Below are positions 1-45,012 of a DNA stretch of 46,097 nt, in pieces; the first letter of the stretch is position 1, and every line of letters begins with the position of its first letter. Location of the stretch: the NCBI GenBank assembly GCA_011051755.1, contig DRKN01000177.1, positions 1 through 46,097 of the forward strand. Direction: 5' to 3'. The stretch comes from Gammaproteobacteria bacterium (lineage in GTDB: Bacteria; Pseudomonadota; Gammaproteobacteria; SZUA-152). The notes under the pieces are model-generated. The model saw only the letters and a program-made list of their open reading frames with translations. It was not told the DNA's origin and did no database searches. Position numbers and translations under genes: made by a program.

Positions 1-481
1 GGGGGTCCATGGCCAGGGCCCGGGCCAGGGACGCGCGCTTGACCATGCCGCCGCTGAGCTGGGCCGGGTAGAGCCGCGCCGCATGTTCCGGCAGGCCCAC
101 CATGGCGATCTTCATGTGCACGATCTCGTCGATGATGGAAGGCGGCAGACGGGTGTATTCCTTAAGGGTAATGCCGATGTTCTCGGCAACGGTCAGGGAA
201 GAATACAGGGCGCCCGCCTGAAACAATACACCCCACTGGCGGCGCAGCCAGGCCGCCTGGCCGCGTGACAGCCTGCCAAGCTCATGCCCCAGCACTTCCA
301 GGTGCCCGGACTCGGGCCGCTGCAGCATGATCATCTCCCGCAGCAGGGTGGATTTTCCTGAGCCACTGCCGCCGAGCAGGCCATAAATCTCCCCCTCCCC
401 CACGGTCAGGCTGACATGGTCGTGCACCAGGTTGTCGCCGAACCGGGTCACCACGTCTGTTACACGAACGACAGGGTTCAT
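1..481 (-). CDS. mlaF: MlaF-type lipid-transport ABC ATPase (3' end cut off)
   Basis: Cytoplasmic ATPase of the Mla system, which moves phospholipid between outer and inner membrane in Gram-negative bacteria. The first 160 residues are in the window, read leftward from ATG at 481. They contain a Walker A (GGSGSGKST), a Q-loop (FQAGALYSSLTV) and the ABC signature LSGGM followed by KRASLARALAMDP, where the window ends just before Walker B. GALYSSLTV after the Q-loop is typical of the MlaF/Ttg2A branch. The start overlaps the stop of the permease gene (ATGA), so the two are translationally coupled. The rest of an mla operon would lie to the left. Host gene, not prophage. Confidence 0.93.
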   Translation of the reverse strand, partial: MNPVVRVTDVVTRFGDNLVHDHVSLTVGEGEIYGLLGGSGSGKSTLLREMIMLQRPESGHLEVLGHELGRLSRGQAAWLRRQWGVLFQAGALYSSLTVAENIGITLKEYTRLPPSIIDEIVHMKIAMVGLPEHAARLYPAQLSGGMVKRASLARALAMDP

Positions 482-1623
482 ATGCCCAGCCTGGTGAAGA
501 CCACCGAGAACAAGGCATCACAGGCAATCACCAGGAAAATGGCGTTCACCACGCTGATGGTGGTGTACCGCCCTATGCTCTCTGTATTGCGTGATACCTG
601 AAAACCGCGGAAGCAGCCGACGATGGCAATCAGCCAGGCAAAGAATGGCCCCTTGGCCACGCCTATCCAGACGTGTTTCACATCCAGCACGTTCTGCAGG
701 CGGTGTATGAATTCCGTCCAGGAGATGTTCAGGTGGATATTGGCCACCACCATGCCGCCGATGATGCCGATGATGTCGGCAAAGAAAATCATCAGCGGCA
801 GGGCGATCATCACGGCAATCACCCGTGGCAGCACCAGGAACCTGTGCGGCTCGAAGCCCATGATGCGCATGGCGTCGATTTCCTGGGTGATTTTCATCAC
901 GCCGATCTGCGCCGTGTAGGACGAGCCCGTGCGGCCCGCCACCACGATGGCCGTAATCAGGGGCGCCAGCTCGCGGGTCACGGAAATGGCGATCATGTCC
1001 ACCACGAAGATGTTCGCCCCGAACTTCTGCAGCTGCACCGCGCCCTGGTAGGCTATGACCACGCCGATGAGAAAGCTGGTCAGGGTGATGATGGGCAGGG
1101 CCCGCACGCCGGCTTCCTGAATGTTCTTCACGATGGCGCCCCAGCGGAACTTCCAGGGCTGCACCAGCAGCAACAGCAGAACGATGAAGTCCTCTCCCAG
1201 AAAGGAAAGGAAGGCCACCAGGTCCCGCCAGGCGGCAGCTGTCGCCTCCCCGAGCTGCACCAGGGGGCCCAGCAGGCGGGAACCCAGGGTGGAGCGCCGC
1301 GGCGGTACAGGCGTGAGATAGGCAGCGACCATCCGCCGCAGTTGCTCCTGGTCGGCCGTGAAGCCGGTCACTTCGACCTCATATCCCTGGCCGCGCAGCC
1401 GGTCCAGGGTGCGCAGGAACAACACCATGCCGCTGGAATCCATTGCGGAGACCTGTGACATGTCCCATTGCAGCCGGCGCTGCCCCAAGCCCTGAAAGCG
1501 GCTGTCCAGCTCACGAACCAACTCATCCAGCGCCTCCACGCGCCAGTCTCCATGTCCCTGGATCAGCAGGCTGTCACCTTGGGTCAGAAACCTCATGCCG
1601 GCCCTGTGCTCTCTTTCCGTCAT
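478..1623 (-). CDS. mlaE: MlaE-type ABC permease with N-terminal STAS domain
   Basis: Inner-membrane permease partner of MlaF. The protein is 381 residues: about 1-100 form a STAS-like domain (LDELVRELDSRF, SAMDSSGMVLFLRTLDRL), and about 120-381 are the MlaE permease with several hydrophobic helices and the family-typical ELAPLITAIVVAGRTGSSY and EIDAMRIMGF segments. Canonical MlaE is about 260 residues with a separate MlaB STAS protein; the fused form is also common in Proteobacteria. The start could be ATG 1623 or the internal ATG ten codons later; neither has a strong ribosome binding site. Host gene. It ends in ATGA with mlaF. The 106 bp upstream, to attL, hold no gene. Confidence 0.93.
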   Translation of the reverse strand: MTEREHRAGMRFLTQGDSLLIQGHGDWRVEALDELVRELDSRFQGLGQRRLQWDMSQVSAMDSSGMVLFLRTLDRLRGQGYEVEVTGFTADQEQLRRMVAAYLTPVPPRRSTLGSRLLGPLVQLGEATAAAWRDLVAFLSFLGEDFIVLLLLLVQPWKFRWGAIVKNIQEAGVRALPIITLTSFLIGVVIAYQGAVQLQKFGANIFVVDMIAISVTRELAPLITAIVVAGRTGSSYTAQIGVMKITQEIDAMRIMGFEPHRFLVLPRVIAVMIALPLMIFFADIIGIIGGMVVANIHLNISWTEFIHRLQNVLDVKHVWIGVAKGPFFAWLIAIVGCFRGFQVSRNTESIGRYTTISVVNAIFLVIACDALFSVVFTRLGI

Positions 1624-1745: not shown

Positions 1746-1764
1746 ACACAAACAGTTAGAAATA

Positions 1765-2467
1765 TCAGCAATATGCTGATTTCATTCGCCCACATCTCGT
1801 CTCGATGGGCAAAGAATGTCCGGGCTCTATAACCCTTGATCGGGCGTCGGACAAGCACACCCGGCGATGCCTGCCCCAAGCCGGTCTCTGCCGGCGATGA
1901 TTGAGCACCACCCTTGCGGGTGGCTCTAGGCTCCCACCTGAGCAACAGATCACGTCTGACCTGCTGGATGGGGGCTTCCCGGGGACTCGCTCCCCAGCGG
2001 CCATCCGTTGACCCTCGGATGGATGGGGGACTTACGCCGCTTGGTCATTGCGGCTGCCTGGCAGATGCGGGCATCTCAGCCCCTGGTGCTTCTTGCCGAT
2101 CGGAGGGGTGTGCTCCCCTGCATGACGGACACTGGAGTGGCGCTCCAGGCCGATCCGTCAAGCCGCGCAGCGCAGGTAGTGGTCACCCTTTCGGCATCCC
2201 TATTAAGGATGGCGGTGGCCAACCCGCGCTTTTTCCCCACGCTGCGGCCGTCGGCCAGCCCGCTTGCCTGTTTCCAGGCTGCCACAGACCATGTGGCGCG
2301 GGCTGCATCCGGTGGCGGTTCCGGTTCAGCGCTTTCCGCCGCCACCGCCGCAGACTGCTCACCAGCTGCCCGGCCATCGCAGGCCGGCTGGCTTCTTTGT
2401 CCCCCTTTCGCGCTCTCGTCCCTGCGGCGACTCAAGCGACCGGCGCTGCGTCCAGCACCGGCGGGTT
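1765..2467 (-). ncRNA. candidate large structured RNA at the prophage edge
   Basis: This stretch (1746-2540) has no convincing protein gene on either strand, but is densely folded. Seen directly: CCACCC/GGGTGG closing a GCAA loop on the minus strand (1908-1923); GGGGA/TCCCC (1981-1995); CCATCCG/CGGATGG (2001-2022); AGATG/CATCT (2063-2076); AGGGG/CCCCT (2104-2119); CTGGAG/CTCCAG (2132-2148) nested in GACGGA/TCCGTC (2124-2159); CATCC/GGATG (2195-2211) nested in GGTCACC/GGTGGCC (2181-2220). The minus strand is favoured by the GNRA loop and the TATAAT box at 2474-2479. A hairpin near 1765-1785 could be its end. Phage-borne giant RNAs such as GOLLD are precedents, but I cannot assign a family. Confidence 0.5.
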
Positions 2468-2473
2468 AAGTGA

Positions 2474-2502
2474 ATTATACGCTATTTCTTTGTTTCGGCT
2501 AT
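2474..2502 (-). promoter_or_regulatory. putative promoter of the structured RNA
   Basis: A perfect -10 box TATAAT reads leftward at 2479-2474. The -35 position (2502-2497, ATAGCC) is poor and lies inside the long palindrome at 2492-2531. Such a layout suggests either repression or activator dependence. Transcription would begin near 2467, exactly where the hairpin-rich region starts. Confidence 0.45.
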
Positions 2503-2531
2503 TTCTGCAAACTTGCAGAAATAGCTGAAAC
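2492..2531. repeat. long near-perfect palindrome, operator-like
   Basis: Two 19-bp arms (2492-2510 and 2513-2531) separated by AC, differing at one position. The arms contain GCTATTTCTGCAA, and GCTATTTCT is repeated again at 2481-2489. It lies between the stop of the Aca1-like gene and the TATAAT box. There is no T-tract on either side, so an intrinsic terminator is unlikely; a protein binding site or a stable RNA hairpin at the end of the operon is more likely. Confidence 0.7.
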
Positions 2532-2547: not shown

Positions 2548-2769
2548 TTAATCAACCGACGCCGCCCAGCACTCCAGCACCACCTGGAGCAGGTAGGGCG
2601 CGGGGCGGTAAGATGACCTGTCCGCGTGGATGAGATGACGCCGAAAGTTGTTCTCGGCGTACCCCAAGCGCTTTGCGATCTCGCGCTGGCTGAGGCCGAT
2701 CTGGCCGATCAGGCTGCGCAGGTAGGCGGGGTCTGGGTTGTAGTGGGCAACCTTGTTTGGGGGCCGCAT
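2548..2769 (-). CDS. Aca1-like helix-turn-helix regulator
   Basis: 73 residues, DNA-binding. The sequence runs NPDPAYLRSLIGQIGLSQRE, then IAKRLGYAENNFRRHL, then YRPAPYLLQVVLECWA. From memory, Aca1 of Pseudomonas phage anti-CRISPR loci (79 aa) shows the same plan: DPDPRYLRGL, GISQRRAAELLG, YRPAPYTVQFALECLA. Aca proteins repress the acr promoter by binding inverted repeats in it. Here it is the last gene of a three-gene operon whose promoter contains a perfect palindrome (3541-3562), and its ATG overlaps the stop of the gene before it (ATGA). All of this fits an acr-aca operon. Homology to Aca1 is my recall, not a search, but the C-terminal YRPAPY motif is distinctive. Confidence 0.85.
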   Translation of the reverse strand: MRPPNKVAHYNPDPAYLRSLIGQIGLSQREIAKRLGYAENNFRRHLIHADRSSYRPAPYLLQVVLECWAASVD

Positions 2770-3065
2770 CAGTTTAGACTCCCGCTGCCGCCACGGATCT
2801 CTACGCCGGTGATCTCCTCCGCCTCGATCTCGGCAATGATCTGTTCCATGACCTGATCTGGCGCACCACCTTGGGCGCGATGATGCTGATACCAGGCAGT
2901 CATTAGTGAGGTGACGATCTCCTCGCTGAACGGTAGATCGTTGTCCTCACAGATTTCCCGGAGGATTTCTGCATCGAACTCGATATCTCCGGTTTCTGGA
3001 TCGCGCGCGAGGCGCAGGTCGGAAAACTGGAGGTCGGCTGGGATTCTGATTTTCGTGATGTGCAT
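2769..3065 (-). CDS. small acidic phage protein, candidate anti-CRISPR
   Basis: 98 residues from ATG 3065, rich in Asp and Glu (FDAEILREICEDNDL; MEQIIAEIEAEE). No recognised domain. A longer form beginning upstream would read through a strong GC hairpin (3075-3094) and overlap the preceding gene, so the short start is preferred. It sits between another unknown gene and the Aca1-like regulator, coupled to the latter by ATGA. Acidic small proteins in this position are often anti-CRISPRs that mimic DNA. It could instead be an ordinary phage protein: the pattern DLRLARDPETGDIEFD recalls uncharacterised phage proteins. Confidence 0.8.
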   Translation of the reverse strand: MHITKIRIPADLQFSDLRLARDPETGDIEFDAEILREICEDNDLPFSEEIVTSLMTAWYQHHRAQGGAPDQVMEQIIAEIEAEEITGVEIRGGSGSLN

Positions 3066-3074
3066 GATGTAAAT

Positions 3075-3094
3075 GCCCCGGCGCACGCCGGGGC
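3075..3094 (-). terminator. GC hairpin inside the acr-like operon
   Basis: Nine-base arms GCCCCGGCG and CGCCGGGGC around a 2-nt centre lie between the 124-aa gene and the 98-aa gene. On the minus strand it is followed by ATTTAC, a weak T-run. It may attenuate transcription so that the downstream genes are made at a lower level, or protect the upstream mRNA end. Confidence 0.4.
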
Positions 3095-3103
3095 TTCTCG
3101 TGA

Positions 3104-3478
3104 TTATTGGTGGTTGTCCCATTCGTCGCACAGGCGCTGGAATGCGTCATACGTGTCAAACTCCATAACGAGTATGTACGCTTGATTTGCAAACTCTGTC
3201 CAGTCGTCAGACTGATAGTAATATGGGTATGACCCCATATTCAGCGCGTTGAGGACCTCCTCGCGGCGTGCATTAGCCCAGTCTGCGACGTATTCCTCGT
3301 TCCCGCCCCAGTCACCAATGCTATCAGCGGCATAGACTGAACTGAGGGGGCCACCTGTCGTTGGGCCGCTATTGGGCGCTTCCGGCGTGCCCATTTTTTC
3401 GTGCAGTTCATTGATTTGCTCCATTACAGGAGCATAAAGCCAATTATTTTGGATTTCGGTGTCGGTGAAAATCGCCAT
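3104..3478 (-). CDS. unknown acidic protein, candidate anti-CRISPR
   Basis: 124 residues from ATG 3478, chosen because of a strong ribosome binding site (GAGGAGAGAAAA before the ATG). Acidic, rich in Trp, Tyr and Asp: IQNNWLYAPVMEQINELHEK, DSIGDWGGNEEYVADWANARR, YYYQSDDWTEFANQAY. No membrane segment or signal peptide and no family that I recognise. It is the first gene behind the consensus promoter at 3541-3569, followed by the 98-aa gene and the Aca1-like regulator. First-gene position behind an Aca-type operator is where anti-CRISPR genes sit; the function is inferred from context only. Confidence 0.82.
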   Translation of the reverse strand: MAIFTDTEIQNNWLYAPVMEQINELHEKMGTPEAPNSGPTTGGPLSSVYAADSIGDWGGNEEYVADWANARREEVLNALNMGSYPYYYQSDDWTEFANQAYILVMEFDTYDAFQRLCDEWDNHQ

Positions 3479-3540
3479 TTTTCTCTCCTCGCCCTTCGGC
3501 TGGTTGCCAGCTCGGGGCCCATTCCCCTGCTGTTGAATAC

Positions 3541-3569
3541 AGTATATCCTCACGGATATACTCTGTCAA
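3541..3569 (-). promoter_or_regulatory. consensus sigma70 promoter with palindromic operator
   Basis: Reading leftward: -35 TTGACA (3569-3564), exactly 17 bp, -10 TATACT (3546-3541). A perfect inverted repeat, AGTATATCC and GGATATACT around TCAC (3541-3562), covers the -10 and most of the spacer. A protein bound there would block the polymerase. The probable ligand is the Aca1-like protein encoded at the end of the operon, or the prophage repressor, although its sites (ATAGCCA-type) look different. It makes the three-gene operon independent of the late promoter. Confidence 0.85.
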
Positions 3570-7614: not shown

Positions 7615-8393
7615 AGGTTCCTGAACGCCGTTTCTTTCATAAAGATGTGAACGTCCTCATAGTCTTTTATGTCATTCACGCAGTCATTGAACCCAACAAG
7701 TGTTGGGCATGTTCCGTACCCTGATGATGTGCATGACGCCTCATACACCTCAAGCACCGCCGTTCCTCCGGAATTGGGTACTGCATCGCCCTTTGTGATG
7801 GTCGTTGCCGATGAATAATCAGGCTCTGTGCCTAGCGTTCCAGCCGTAGTGCATAGGGCCGTTACATATCGGTAGTCATAGTTGTTTGCATCAGTAAAAT
7901 TCGAGCTTGTGATTTTCACGTAATGTCCAACCGGTACATACAACCCTTCTGACCAATCGCACGTCATCGTATAAATGACTGAATCGCTCTCATATCCAGT
8001 TTTCGACTGGCCATTGGCCGCGATATTCTCCGCCAGCGTCTCATCCCACAGCACCAGCGGGAGCCTTTCCATGCACTCCCAGACCACGGTTCCATCCGTG
8101 ACCGTGCCGCCGATTGCTGTGGGGAATGTCACCGAACCCGCCCCGGTGGTGCCGGCCTGAACGCAGGTATAGCGGAAATCCCCGTCCTCGATGCTGTCCC
8201 CGTAGGCATACGCCGTGGACGCGGCGCGGGCTGGCCATTCGTATTCCCCGGCAAAGATTTTGTTCAGGGCGCTGATGAGCAGGTCAGTGTTTTTGTCCCA
8301 GACGTAACCATTCCCTTCCCAGTGCGCGTCTCTTGCTCCTTTGAGCAGCATCAGCACTTTTTCGAGGCGGATTGTGTATTTGTCAGCGGCCAT
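7611..8393 (-). CDS. tail protein sharing a module with the 1135-aa protein
   Basis: 260 residues from ATG 8393, chosen because it makes a TGATG overlap with the stop of the large upstream gene. It contains two segments also found inside that protein: AASTAYAYGDSIEDGDFRY with GTVTDGTVVWEC, and TLGTEPDYSSATTITKGDAV with NSGGTAVLEV. The first resembles carbohydrate-binding (CBM5/12-like) repeats of phage fibres. It probably arose by duplication of a piece of its neighbour. Virion tail component; precise role unknown. Confidence 0.78.
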   Translation of the reverse strand: MAADKYTIRLEKVLMLLKGARDAHWEGNGYVWDKNTDLLISALNKIFAGEYEWPARAASTAYAYGDSIEDGDFRYTCVQAGTTGAGSVTFPTAIGGTVTDGTVVWECMERLPLVLWDETLAENIAANGQSKTGYESDSVIYTMTCDWSEGLYVPVGHYVKITSSNFTDANNYDYRYVTALCTTAGTLGTEPDYSSATTITKGDAVPNSGGTAVLEVYEASCTSSGYGTCPTLVGFNDCVNDIKDYEDVHIFMKETAFRNL

Positions 8394-11300
8394 CAGTACA
8401 CCCACCCGTTCAGCGTCATTTCAAACTCGATTTCCTCCCGTCCAGGACAACTGAACGTCCAGAAGTCGGAGAAGTCCACATCATCAGGGAACGTCACCAT
8501 GGCGGCGTAATCCGGATTGTCGGTTGCCGGGATGAACACGGCTGGCCAGTCACCACCCGATTTGTGGGCGTCGATTCCAGCTTCCAGCGCCTCCGCCTCC
8601 GCCCGGGTGATGAACCCCTCCCAGATGACCTTCCAGCCGCGCGCCTTGCCATACAGCGCCGCAGACGGATTCACGCCGTTTCCACGGTTCATGTTCCAGC
8701 TGGATTTTCTCGATGCGTTGTTGCCCGGCGCGTCGAACTCCAGCCCCATGCCGGCCCACAGCCAGCCAATCTCCGCATCCGGTGCGTTCGTGATGGTCAC
8801 GGTCAGCGTGGGCGAACTCAGCACAGGGTCGAACAGCAGCACCATCACCCCGTCCCTGACGGTCATCGGCCATGTGTCCGTGCCGTCGGTCACACTGACG
8901 GTAGCGGATGAGGGCAGCGTGTGCATGGCGATGGCCAGGGTATCGACGTTGCCGGATGTCGGCAGCGTGATCGTTGTTCCGGTGCCATCCCATGCGTACC
9001 GCCCATCGTCCGGGTGCTGGGCGGATGAAATCGCGTGGGGCTGGTAGGCGGTGAACGAGGCGGAATCACCAGCCACGAATGAGGGGCAGGCCCCATCCTC
9101 AAACGTCACCGACAGGCCATCCACCAGCGACGTAGCGCCGATGTCGGCAGGCGCAGACCACGACCCGCCATCCTGCCGCCAGCGGAACTGGCCAGTTTCC
9201 ACGCAGAAGGTGAAGGTGTCGCCAAGCTCAAACCCGATGCCGCCCGGCGTGATGCGGGCCTGAATCTGTCCGTTGTCATACAGTGCTGGCGGTGCGTTCT
9301 TGTCCACGACATAATCCGCCGTGAGGCCGTCAACAGACCCCTGAACCTGAAACGTGATTTCGTCCGTGCCGTCCACGCCGCCAACCAGATTCAGGGCGCC
9401 GGCGGCAATGGTGGACAGATAGAGCCTGTCGCCCACCTGATAGGTCGGGGGCCAACCGGCATCGCCGATGGTGAGCGTGACGGTATCGCCCTCCTGCAGT
9501 TGACCGACGCAGCTCTGGTCAACCTTGATGACGAATCCGAACTCATAAGTCGGCACAATCTCCCCGCCGGCCATTTTGACGGAGTGGTATTCCTGATTGG
9601 TGAACGCCGGCAGATACCCGCCGGTATCCGGCACCCACCAGTAATCCGAGCCGTTATCCGGCCAGCATTTGTTCTGGTTTCCTGCGGCATCCGGGTACAC
9701 TTCAGCGGCTGCCAGGATTTCCTCGTAATGTTCTGACATATACGCCAGCACACTAAGATGATGTGCGCTTCCGCATGTTGGTACTGGGAACCCAGTCAAT
9801 GTTGGGCATGATGAATCGCTCGAAACGCAAAATACAGACTCCACTTCCAATACCGCCGTTCCGCCGGAATTAGGAACAGACTCTCCTTTTGTGATGCTCG
9901 TTGCTGTGGAGTAGTCAGGCTCATCCCCCAGCGTTCCACCTGTCGTCACCCGGCAAATGACCTCAATATAACCGCCAACCTTATCGTTATTCACCCGTAC
10001 AGAATCACCAACAGCAACTGTGCATCCCTCGGCCTTTGCCCATACGACATTGATATCAGGGGCCTGTGTTTCGGTATCATCAATCTGCGAGAGCGCATCC
10101 AGCAGCTCATCCCACCAGACAAGCGGTTTTTTGGCCATGCAAATCCAGACCACGGTTCCGTCCGTGACCGTTTCCCCGATTTTCGTGGGGAATGTGGGCG
10201 CTGATGCGCCGCTGGTGCCGTCGTTTTCCGCCCGGTAGCGGTAGTCACCGGACTGGATGGAATCGCCCTCGGAATAAGCCGTGCTGGCCGCCCATTCGTC
10301 CCAGCTGGTGGTTCCCGTGAATATCCCGGCCAGCAGGGACAGCATCACGTCATGGGGTTCGCCGTACCGGGCAGACGTGGTGTTGAATTCGCCAGTCAGT
10401 CGCGCGTCCGCCCGGTCTTTGCGGATGGTGTATTCGGGGTTTGCCGTAGTGGCCTGGGCCTCGTCACCGAACAGGCAGGTTCCTGGCAGCGACAGGTACG
10501 GCACGGACTCGCACGGGCAGTCTGTCGTGGGGCGCTTGGTGTACACCCACTTGATGACCCCATCCACCGCATCCGGGCCAAGCTGCAGGGCATCCACACA
10601 GACCGCCGGCGGGTTGCCGGATTGCCGGTCGGCATAGGATACGGTGGCGGAGATATCCCCGGTCTGCCACTCGGTGTAGCCCTCGGGGAGTTTCTGCGGG
10701 ATTCGCAGCGTGAACTTCCCGGGGGCGTCATAGAGGACATTGGTTATCAGCGTGCCCAGGTCTCCAGAGACAGAACCTGACAGCTTCCACTTCTCCCGGC
10801 CAACACCAGCGCCGTTCTTGCGCTCAACGGCGTAACATTCGGCGGTAATCAGCTCGGTATTCGCCGATGCACCTGCAGAGTAATCCACAAACCCGGTGGC
10901 ATAGGGCGAGCCGTCCCCGCTGGTGCTGTCCACTCTGGCATCGGTGCGGGTGCGCAGGTCAAGCACAGCCTGGGGGTTATCGGCAATCAGGTCAGGTGAG
11001 ATGACACCAACCACCTCAACCAGCGCGGACGGATTGTCGCGAATCTGCGACAGCAGGTCATACAGCGTCACCACCCCGGTATAGTTCTCCGTCGTCACGC
11101 CGTCGGTAATCGTCACCGTGCGGGAGCCGGAGACAAATTTCACCGCATCACCCGCTGAATGTTCCATGGCGATTTCCGGCATGAACCGATAGTTCCACTT
11201 GCCGTCCTTGTAATACTTCCACTGCCGGTAGATGGTGGAATCTGAGCCGATTGTCAGGCGCTTGGCGGATGCAGGGATTTCCGTCTCGGTGCCAACCGCC

Positions 11301-11800
11301 GTATCCCAGTCGTACCCGACGCCCTGCACGATTTCAGCTCCTGCGCTCAGGGACTCCAGCAGGCTGTAACTGGTGGAGGCCTCAGTGATGCCTGACTGGT
11401 CAACCGTGATGCTGACGCTATTACCCGCCGCACCTGACGACAGCGCCCGCAATACGACTCCCTCTATCTGTGCCTCTGCGGTGGCCGTGTCCACACCAAG
11501 GTCAATGACCACCATCTGCCATTTCTGCGGCGTCGCGCCCGCCAGAACCGCCATATCCGACATTTGGCCGGAACCCACACCAGCAAATGACGGCTGGGTG
11601 ATTCGGTTGGAGCCGCCGGAGACAATCTCAACGTCGATATCGGTATCAGCGCCGCCCGTATATGGCCCTGTGAGCGAGATTCTGCCGTTACCTGACCGAC
11701 TGACCGCCGTGCGCTTGATGGCGCTGCTCGGCTTTACTGAGCTGGCAGACGGGCCGGTTATGGCCTGATTGTTGTCAGTGAGGATTCGCTGTACTGTCAT
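8393..11800 (-). CDS. large tail-tip protein, 1135 residues
   Basis: The largest protein after none other in the tail group; it follows the tape measure gene directly with a 4-bp overlap, the usual place of tail-tip/central tail proteins. Beta-rich throughout, with repeated domain types: an early Ser/Gly-rich part (ISLTGPYTGGADTDIDVEIV), a middle module WAASTAYSEGDSIQSGDYRY with VTDGTVVWIC shared with the next gene, and a C-terminal part containing FDPVLSSPTLTVTITNAPDA that ends with DVDFSDFWTFSCPGREEIEF. The ending resembles lambda-like minor tail proteins that cap the tape measure. No catalytic motif seen. Confidence 0.8.
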   Translation of the reverse strand: MTVQRILTDNNQAITGPSASSVKPSSAIKRTAVSRSGNGRISLTGPYTGGADTDIDVEIVSGGSNRITQPSFAGVGSGQMSDMAVLAGATPQKWQMVVIDLGVDTATAEAQIEGVVLRALSSGAAGNSVSITVDQSGITEASTSYSLLESLSAGAEIVQGVGYDWDTAVGTETEIPASAKRLTIGSDSTIYRQWKYYKDGKWNYRFMPEIAMEHSAGDAVKFVSGSRTVTITDGVTTENYTGVVTLYDLLSQIRDNPSALVEVVGVISPDLIADNPQAVLDLRTRTDARVDSTSGDGSPYATGFVDYSAGASANTELITAECYAVERKNGAGVGREKWKLSGSVSGDLGTLITNVLYDAPGKFTLRIPQKLPEGYTEWQTGDISATVSYADRQSGNPPAVCVDALQLGPDAVDGVIKWVYTKRPTTDCPCESVPYLSLPGTCLFGDEAQATTANPEYTIRKDRADARLTGEFNTTSARYGEPHDVMLSLLAGIFTGTTSWDEWAASTAYSEGDSIQSGDYRYRAENDGTSGASAPTFPTKIGETVTDGTVVWICMAKKPLVWWDELLDALSQIDDTETQAPDINVVWAKAEGCTVAVGDSVRVNNDKVGGYIEVICRVTTGGTLGDEPDYSTATSITKGESVPNSGGTAVLEVESVFCVSSDSSCPTLTGFPVPTCGSAHHLSVLAYMSEHYEEILAAAEVYPDAAGNQNKCWPDNGSDYWWVPDTGGYLPAFTNQEYHSVKMAGGEIVPTYEFGFVIKVDQSCVGQLQEGDTVTLTIGDAGWPPTYQVGDRLYLSTIAAGALNLVGGVDGTDEITFQVQGSVDGLTADYVVDKNAPPALYDNGQIQARITPGGIGFELGDTFTFCVETGQFRWRQDGGSWSAPADIGATSLVDGLSVTFEDGACPSFVAGDSASFTAYQPHAISSAQHPDDGRYAWDGTGTTITLPTSGNVDTLAIAMHTLPSSATVSVTDGTDTWPMTVRDGVMVLLFDPVLSSPTLTVTITNAPDAEIGWLWAGMGLEFDAPGNNASRKSSWNMNRGNGVNPSAALYGKARGWKVIWEGFITRAEAEALEAGIDAHKSGGDWPAVFIPATDNPDYAAMVTFPDDVDFSDFWTFSCPGREEIEFEMTLNGWVY

Positions 11801-42931: not shown

Positions 42932-43015
42932 CGCTTCGCGTAACCGGCGGCTAAAAGCATTGCGAGCGATAGCGAACGATGCTTTTAGCCGTCCGAGTTG
43001 ACGCGATTGTTATAT
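42926..43015 (+). repeat. attC-type recombination site 6
   Basis: 90 bp, the best site of the array. ACATAAC (42926-42932) and GTTATAT (43009-43015); long paired arms CGGCGGCTAAAAGCAT (about 42946-42961) and ATGCTTTTAGCCGTCCG (about 42979-42995), flanked by GCGTAAC/GTTGACGC. Length and extrahelical steps fit attC. Confidence 0.9.
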
Positions 43016-43506: not shown

Positions 43507-43754
43507 TGACCGAAATCGAACAACTACTGAAACTCATACAGCCGCAGATCCCGATCACCGTTGATCTGTGGTCTGTCCGTGAAATCGCGGCCTATCTCAA
43601 ACGAAACCCCAACAACGTGCGGGACCGGGTAACGAAACTACCAGGCTTCCCCACCCCGATCCGCCTGCCAACAGAATCAGGCAAGCGAGGACAGCCATTG
43701 TGGAAAGCCAAGGAAGTGATCGCCTGGGCGGAAAAACACCGTGACGCCGCCTAA
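43506..43754 (+). CDS. putative excisionase/AlpA-like DNA-binding protein
   Basis: 82 residues: LWSVREIAAYLKRNPNNVRD RVTKLPGF, PIRLPTESGKRGQPLWKAKE VIAWAE. Winged helix-turn-helix of the AlpA/MerR-Xis type: 'W....IA.YL......V...V...GFP.P', 'W...EV..W'. It ends 4 bp into the convergent integrase gene. Most likely directs excision. Confidence 0.8.
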   Translation: MTEIEQLLKLIQPQIPITVDLWSVREIAAYLKRNPNNVRDRVTKLPGFPTPIRLPTESGKRGQPLWKAKEVIAWAEKHRDAA

Positions 43755-44737
43755 TCCAGTCGATCCGCAAGCTCATCGATGGTCGGGTTGTAATACACCT
43801 GGCTGAGGATCTTCAGATCACGAATCCCCAGCATTCGCGCCAGCTCCATCACCCCGAGCTTTTTCGACAACCGCGTGGCCGCCTCATGACGCGAATCATG
43901 AAAGTGCAAATCAACGATCCCCGCCCGGTCCCGCATCTTGCGGAACAACGCATCAATACTCTGCCTCGTCAACCCGAACACATCCGGCGGATCCGTCGCC
44001 TCCATCACATGATCCAACAACGCCCGGGCCCTGGAAGATAGCGGCACATCCCGTGCGGAGCCATTTTTCGTCATCGGCAAATGCACATGCCGCTCATGCA
44101 CATCACAACGCCGCAGCCCGGCGATCTCCCCGCACCGCATCCCCGTCTCGATGGCAAACAAGAACGCGGCAATGACCCGCTGCTGCCGTTCAACCGGCGG
44201 CACATCATCCGAATACCCGGACGCGATCCGCAACGCTTCGATTTCATCCTCTGCCGGCCGCCTGTGCCGCGGCGGTGACGCCTTCGGACGCGACACCAGG
44301 GACACTGGCGACTCACGCAACCAGCCCCACTCCCGCGCCGCCACGCGGCACGCATGAGACAAGATGTTCATCTCCCGGCATACCGTTGATCCGCTGACCT
44401 CGCGCAACCGCGCATCCCGCCAGGCGGCGATATGCCGCGGCGCCAGCTCACGCAGAGACAAATCAGCCAGCGCCTTGTTACCCAGGAACCGGTTGATGAA
44501 CTTCTGTTCACGCGCCGCGCCTCGCTTGGTTGGCGTCACCTCCATCGAATACCGGCGCAACAGATCACCGAACGTCTTGTTCGGTATCTTCCCGGCAATG
44601 GCATCCTCCAGCTCGATTTCAGTTTCACGCGCCCAGGCAACGGCAGCCGCCTTGGTGGCAAACGTCTTTGACTTCCGTCTGCCGCCCACCTTGACCTGAA
44701 CCTGCCAACGATCCCCTCGCTTGCGAATACTCGCCAT
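43751..44737 (-). CDS. int: tyrosine-recombinase phage integrase
   Basis: 328 residues. N-terminal arm-binding SIRKRGDRWQVQVKVGGRRK SKTF, core-binding 60-150, catalytic domain with Arg201 (ETGMRCGEIAGL), Lys224, H280-D-S-R283-H284 and a nucleophile Tyr in QVYYNPT (315 or 316). It faces attR, less than 200 bp away. It lacks the extra patch expected of integron integrases, so it is a phage enzyme and not the one that builds cassette arrays. Confidence 0.95.
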   Translation of the reverse strand: MASIRKRGDRWQVQVKVGGRRKSKTFATKAAAVAWARETEIELEDAIAGKIPNKTFGDLLRRYSMEVTPTKRGAAREQKFINRFLGNKALADLSLRELAPRHIAAWRDARLREVSGSTVCREMNILSHACRVAAREWGWLRESPVSLVSRPKASPPRHRRPAEDEIEALRIASGYSDDVPPVERQQRVIAAFLFAIETGMRCGEIAGLRRCDVHERHVHLPMTKNGSARDVPLSSRARALLDHVMEATDPPDVFGLTRQSIDALFRKMRDRAGIVDLHFHDSRHEAATRLSKKLGVMELARMLGIRDLKILSQVYYNPTIDELADRLD

Positions 44738-44748
44738 ACCCCCTCCAC

Positions 44749-44779
44749 TGTCGCCCGACCTGTCGCCCTATTGTCGCCC
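44749..44779. repeat. three direct repeats, probable integrase arm sites
   Basis: TGTCGCCC at 44749, 44761 and 44772, spaced 12 and 11 bp, between int and attR. Their position is that of P' arm-type binding sites for the N-terminal domain of Int. Confidence 0.6.
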
Positions 44780-44925
44780 GCACCAAACGGACAATGTTGG
44801 CGATTGTTTGCGTTTGTGGATAGTACAGCAGCAGAAAACTCCCGCGCAACTCAATCAGTTGCGCGTATTTGTTGGGGAATGTTGTGGGATGTTGTGGTAT
44901 GTGTAAGTGATTGATTCTTGGTAAG

Positions 44926-44941
44926 TGGTGCCCAGGGCCGG
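44926..44941. repeat. attR core (tRNA-Leu 3' end)
   Basis: TGGTGCCCAGGGCCGG, identical to 1730-1745. It lies in the acceptor stem and T arm of the tRNA gene, including the CCA, so integration leaves an intact tRNA gene at this end. Confidence 0.9.
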
Positions 44942-45012
44942 GGTCGAACCGGCACGGTGTTGCCACCGAGGGATTTTAAGTCCCTTGCGTCTACCAATTT
45001 CGCCACCTGGGC
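44926..45012 (-). tRNA. tRNA-Leu (anticodon UAA)
   Basis: 87 nt with encoded CCA. Acceptor GCCCAGG pairs with CCTGGGC; D arm has TTGGTAGACGC; anticodon arm AGGGACT-TAA-AATCCCT; a long variable arm (CTCGGTGGCAACACC) as in class II tRNAs; T arm GTGCCGGTTCGACCCCGGC. The anticodon TAA reads UUA. Target gene of the prophage. Confidence 0.95.

Follow-up and report, generated by a model that had tools for sequence, protein, structure and literature searches.

Large Non-Coding RNAs of Phages

GOLLD RNAs possess a conserved 3' region, are located in phages or prophages, often near tRNA islands, and see their expression increase during lysis. More generally, giant phage RNAs are defined by expression and covariation, in other words by a covarying conserved structure and a discrete, abundant transcript, covariation being the defining test for such an RNA. 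To our knowledge, the large phage RNAs GOLLD, ROOL, and the ICP1 transcript are without known function, and new, unrelated large phage RNAs would help to find one. GOLLD has a length of about 800 nt (PMC12286853), while in the phage ICP1, RNA-seq identified an ORF-less transcript of about 800 nt, lying between gp139 and gp140, as the most abundant of the phage (PMC7567579).

The present analysis concerns a region at the edge of a prophage that a sequence-only reading had likened to GOLLD-type RNAs. The window, i.e., the whole stretch of DNA analyzed (46,097 nt), is one whole contig of a draft genome.

The Prophage and Its Borders

The borders of the prophage and of the region under study are the following:

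1730-1745: attL core TGGTGCCCAGGGCCGG, a 16-bp exact repeat of 44926-44941
1746-2547 (802 bp): non-coding region extending from attL to the first phage gene (2548), with no codon bias, no Pfam or PHROG match above cut-off, and no Rfam match at gathering threshold
43751-44737, minus strand: tyrosine integrase adjoining attR (PF00589, E 8.5e-19)
44926-44941: attR core TGGTGCCCAGGGCCGG, 3' end of tRNA-Leu(taa), whose gene occupies 44926-45012 on the minus strand

The terminase, portal, head, and tail genes sit between the two att copies; together with the att repeat, the tRNA-Leu 3' end, and the integrase, they make 1730-44941 a prophage of 43.2 kb inserted in tRNA-Leu. The hairpin-rich region starts one base inside attL, so that its location at the prophage edge had been rightly recognized by the sequence-only reading, and its placement downstream of leftward genes is supported as well. 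An empty att site was sought in the genus, where the left flank was too diverged to be located. Directly downstream of attL and in the same direction lies a host mlaE-like permease gene (478-1623, minus strand), which prophage read-through could affect.

Several other elements of the prophage deserve to be mentioned. Beside the attR core, two 10-bp tandem near-repeats, GGAATGTTGT and GGGATGTTGTGG (44876-44897), are candidate integrase arm sites, and three near-repeats of CTGTCGCCC are found between the integrase and attR (44747-44781). Locally, the window folds most strongly, whichever strand is taken, at 42948-42991, where a perfect 13-bp inverted repeat, CGGCTAAAAGCAT, lies inside an AT-rich gap. 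Finally, the phage relatives of a 1135-aa tail-region protein (8393-11800, minus strand) were found only in two Cylindrospermopsis cyanophages, at 33-35% identity.

A Probable Anti-CRISPR Operon Upstream of the Region

On the minus strand, the region is preceded by a small gene cluster:

2548-2769, minus strand: aca1 homologue encoding a 73-aa HTH protein, the gene just upstream of the region on that strand
2769-3062, minus strand: orphan ORF of 97 aa, candidate anti-CRISPR, coding by codon score, no phage match
3104-3478, minus strand: orphan ORF of 124 aa, candidate anti-CRISPR, coding by codon score, no phage match
3541-3569, minus strand: promoter TTGACA-17-TATACT (11 of 12 consensus bases) with the inverted repeat AGTATATCC-GTGA-GGATATACT inside

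The product of 2548-2769 shows 44% identity to genes at the aca1 position of Pseudomonas DMS3-like phages and matches the Aca1 structures of the PDB (7c0g, E 4.6e-13; 7fa3, E 5.6e-13), the similarity extending over the HTH domain as expected for an Aca1 protein. In the same line, the inverted repeat at 3541-3569 is located inside the core promoter, which is the layout described for acr-aca promoters (PMC9410906). The promoter with its inverted repeat, the two orphan ORFs, and the aca1 homologue thereby compose what is, judging from sequence, a probable anti-CRISPR operon (2548-3569, minus strand). Nothing credible matched the 97-aa and 124-aa products among the known proteins searched, and their predicted structures are of low confidence (pLDDT 48 and 54); both are considered as candidate anti-CRISPR proteins. 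This likely anti-CRISPR operon is a more solid find than the non-coding region itself, and the Aca1 homologue is of more immediate value than the RNA, as it flags two orphan genes as testable anti-CRISPR candidates outside Pseudomonas.

Given that the gene immediately upstream is the aca1 homologue of an operon with its own strong, presumably Aca-repressible promoter and internal inverted repeat, the region can be seen as the downstream tail of the probable acr-aca operon. Besides, since a terminator scan of the minus strand recognized no intrinsic terminator between aca1 and attL, read-through into 1746-2547 would be expected.

Coding Status of the Region

Codon scores of all ORFs in 1746-2547 range from z -1.1 to 2.5 against their own shuffles, compared with 4.7-6.5 in the neighboring genes checked, and neither these ORFs nor the six read-through frames gave a Pfam or PHROG match above cut-off, the sole Pfam match being the sub-threshold DUF3930 (E 0.016). 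A degraded gene was rejected on the same grounds, no PHROG match being obtained in the six frames when stops were read as X. As far as sequence can tell, the region is non-coding, and the absence of a good protein frame put forward by the sequence-only reading therefore holds. Its 802 bp without coding signal exceed the length of at least 500 nt that is looked for in a giant ornate RNA.

Stems, Folding, and the TATAAT Box

The structural elements considered in the region and at its upstream end are listed below:

1746-2474, minus strand, leftward: candidate structured RNA, its extent taken from the -10-like box to att, suggested by folding z and stem excess
1764-1780: hairpin ATCAGCA/TGCTGAT next to attL, which might act as a weak terminator or belong to the att arm
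1858-2044, minus strand: predicted multibranch domain made of a closing stem and five hairpins (model R1; z -2.8, MFE near centroid)
1907-1924, minus strand: hairpin GCCACCC-GCAA-GGGTGGT with a GNRA tetraloop
2124-2310, minus strand: predicted compound-helix domain made of a stem with two hairpins, a long arm, and a nested hairpin (model R2; z -3.5)
2266-2279, minus strand: hairpin GCCTG-GAAA-CAGGC with a GNRA tetraloop
2479-2474, minus strand: TATAAT, a motif with five exact copies across the 46 kb
2490-2533 (44 bp): palindrome with 21-nt arms, 95% complementary and 2 nt apart, operator-like or hairpin

The hairpin richness that had first drawn attention to the region exceeds chance: in 1746-2484, the perfect stems with 5 bp or more total 13 versus 6.6 expected, and none of 100 shuffles reached the counts obtained at thresholds of at least 5 and at least 6 bp. 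The minus-strand GNRA hairpin of the sequence-only reading is likewise borne out, three GNRA-closed hairpins with a stem of at least 4 bp being present on this strand versus 0.57 expected (P 0.02), and none on the plus strand. In terms of folding energy, part of the apparent strength is supplied by the palindrome at 2490-2533: with it, z reaches -6.9 on the minus strand and -8.4 on the plus strand, and without it, -4.4 to -4.5 and -3.5, respectively, values at which none of 60 shuffles was as stable on either strand. The preference for the minus strand is slight. Among control windows of 739 nt from the same contig, mostly coding, 5 of 43 foldings lie at z -3.7 or below; the fold strength of the region ranks high within this prophage, and the excess of stems and fold strength is real but not unique or exceptional within the contig. 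Ensemble diversity is clearly low in only one of 10 sub-windows, on the plus strand, whereas the minus strand does not stand out clearly from its shuffles in this respect. As a positive control, we folded the ROOL RNA of plasmid pMP118, which shows no gain in stability over shuffled versions of itself (z 0.0), so that folding energy cannot decide for or against a giant RNA.

As regards signals for transcription, the hairpin at 1764-1780 has no clean T-run and is absent from the list of the terminator scan. The sequence-only reading had also reported a properly spaced TATAAT box. Such a box indeed exists (2479-2474, minus strand), but its promoter context does not follow, the best -35 at 16-18 bp, as read from the sequence, matching 3 of 6 bases and the site being missing from the promoter scan. 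Next to the box, just downstream of aca1, the palindrome is a possible operator; its 20-base core has zero matches in 2.9 million virus contigs.

Known RNA Families and Search for Relatives

A comparison with Rfam, proposed by the sequence-only reading as a check, returned only the tRNA at gathering threshold and nothing in the region. At E <= 10, only scraps far below cut-offs were obtained there, with no GOLLD and no ROOL, and the GOLLD model (RF02032) applied to the whole host genome at E <= 10 gave no match either; membership in GOLLD is therefore unsupported. The ROOL model (RF03087), which detects the pMP118 control at 130 bits, has no match in the window, and membership in ROOL is unsupported too. 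A match to isrG (24 bits against a cut-off of 100) was rejected, as it only joins GC-rich stems over a 168-nt model gap.

Searches for relatives of the region by DNA, translated frames, and single-sequence covariance models, which covered about 770 genomes besides phages, plasmids, and virus contigs, yielded no credible candidate. By blastn, no homologue was found in phages, plasmids, and E. coli, nor in genomes of the host order (24), class (369), and phylum (398), and there was none in 40 records containing a relative of the terminase. Pseudo-peptides of the non-coding frames had no close relative among virus and genome contigs. When the 369 genomes of the class, nine related phages, and 83 Aca1 loci were scanned with the covariance models R1 and R2, only the window itself and weak matches were retrieved; those in G031, G279, G040, and G344 (E 0.02-0.045) were rejected as lying inside long open frames. 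Short GC-rich matches to the region are common, and those examined fell in ORFs: matches of 33-37 bp in G170 and G036, inside long ORFs, were rejected as chance. In addition, 36 matches in the phylum, of at most about 63 bp and scattered across GC-rich stretches, were rejected as a group.

At the same position in terminase-related phages, no sequence-similar region was detected, and no similar RNA lies beside the 83 Aca1 relatives, where there is usually no gap at all. No homologue was thus found in these collections, which is not proof that none exists, and in the absence of one no covariation test is possible. In view of this and of the z of 0.0 of a true ROOL, a giant RNA cannot be shown.

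The virus contigs with a related terminase display another feature: only a short gap separates the primase from the next gene, and its predicted folding is very strong on either strand (-0.50 to -0.60 kcal/mol per nt, approximately), as in G407:23211-23472, G421:37266-37590, and G393:36155-36537. This gap could correspond to a replication origin or an RNA.

Possible Nature of the Region

We tentatively favor, at somewhat less than an even chance, the view that 1746-2547 is transcribed leftward as a structured phage RNA or as a long 3' tail. On this view, a phage transcription unit running leftward (minus strand) would end at attL, and the region would be its untranslated downstream part, into which transcripts from the acr-aca promoter, and perhaps from the late operon too, would run. 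Two compact domains built of GC-rich hairpins would be expected in the resulting RNA, which would most likely serve either as a phage-specific structured ncRNA or as a long structured 3' tail, protecting the transcript or ending it ahead of the host mlaE. Points in favor of a structured RNA are the att/tRNA site, the lack of coding signal, the stem excess, a minus-strand z (-4.5) stronger than that of the ICP1 region, GNRA hairpins confined to the minus strand, the acr-aca promoter with its inverted repeat, and the absence of any minus-strand terminator from the scan. On the other side stand the missing homologues, the 5 of 43 controls that fold as strongly, the nearly equal plus strand, the ensemble diversity, and a TATAAT box devoid of a -35.

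Somewhat less probable, and still to be taken seriously, is a non-functional spacer, in which old insertion or recombination debris at the prophage end would be hairpin-prone from its GC richness and have no RNA role. Such debris would fit with the lack of homologues in any collection searched, with a stem excess of merely about twofold, with control windows reaching a similar folding z, with the lack of a proper promoter, and with a trinucleotide make-up that is about as distant from the phage as that of ordinary phage windows and nearer to the host flanks. It accounts poorly, however, for the shuffles, none of which folds as well on either strand or attains the stem counts, and phage genomes rarely retain 0.8 kb of idle DNA.

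A DNA-level element appears rather improbable. Here, the region would combine an attP arm with regulatory DNA, a phage repressor or Aca1 using the palindrome at 2490-2533 as its operator and the integrase or a host factor recognizing the hairpin at 1764-1780. While the 21-nt arms of the palindrome directly downstream of aca1, the adjacent att core, and the about equal fold strength of both strands are consistent with this, the att arms share no arm-type repeat, the 10-bp tandem repeats being on the integrase side only (44876-44897). Moreover, the palindrome is unlike the inverted repeat of the acr promoter, is not closely repeated elsewhere in the window, and has no virus-contig match, and such elements would explain at most about 150 of the 800 bp.

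A stand-alone new giant ornate RNA, GOLLD/ROOL-like in kind and a separate family by sequence, would suit the size of about 730 nt, the prophage location, the non-coding status, and the GNRA hairpins, but is very unlikely in view of the lack of any Rfam GOLLD/ROOL match, the lack of homologues, and a folding strength that is not diagnostic.

Returning to the favored transcribed RNA or 3' tail, it is unlikely that the region encodes a large structured phage RNA (~730 nt) of a new family, running leftward beside an Aca1-regulated anti-CRISPR operon, an estimate that adds to the stand-alone giant RNA the share of the favored reading where the transcript turns out to be large and discrete. If true, this large RNA might contribute to counter-defence or assemble into oligomers as GOLLD and ROOL do. 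As it stands, the region is a single orphan sequence for which the evidence from folding is moderate.

Comparison with Known Systems

The Aca1-controlled acr operons of the Pseudomonas phages DMS3 and MP29 likewise consist of one or more small genes followed by aca1, under a promoter with an internal inverted repeat, whereas here neither of the two small genes has a match among the known proteins searched and the operator sequence differs. In the 83 Aca1 loci, the median gap to the next ORF (of at least 100 aa) is 33 bp, compared with about 0.8 kb in this prophage.

Among the large RNAs, GOLLD is similarly encoded by phages or prophages, of similar size, and near a tRNA, but the tRNA is here the integration site and the only one present, rather than part of a phage tRNA island. 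ROOL is also large and encoded by prophages or phages, its model being without match in the window. Finally, the ORF-less region of ICP1 equally belongs to a phage, is geneless over about 0.8-1 kb, has no Rfam match above gathering score, and is not accompanied by a tRNA array. While ICP1 is a virulent phage whose transcript was demonstrated by RNA-seq, the present region lies in a prophage and is known from its sequence alone. No sequence similarity to the ICP1 region was detected in the phage collection, and the two regions fold with comparable strength, at z -3.0 in ICP1 and -4.5 here.
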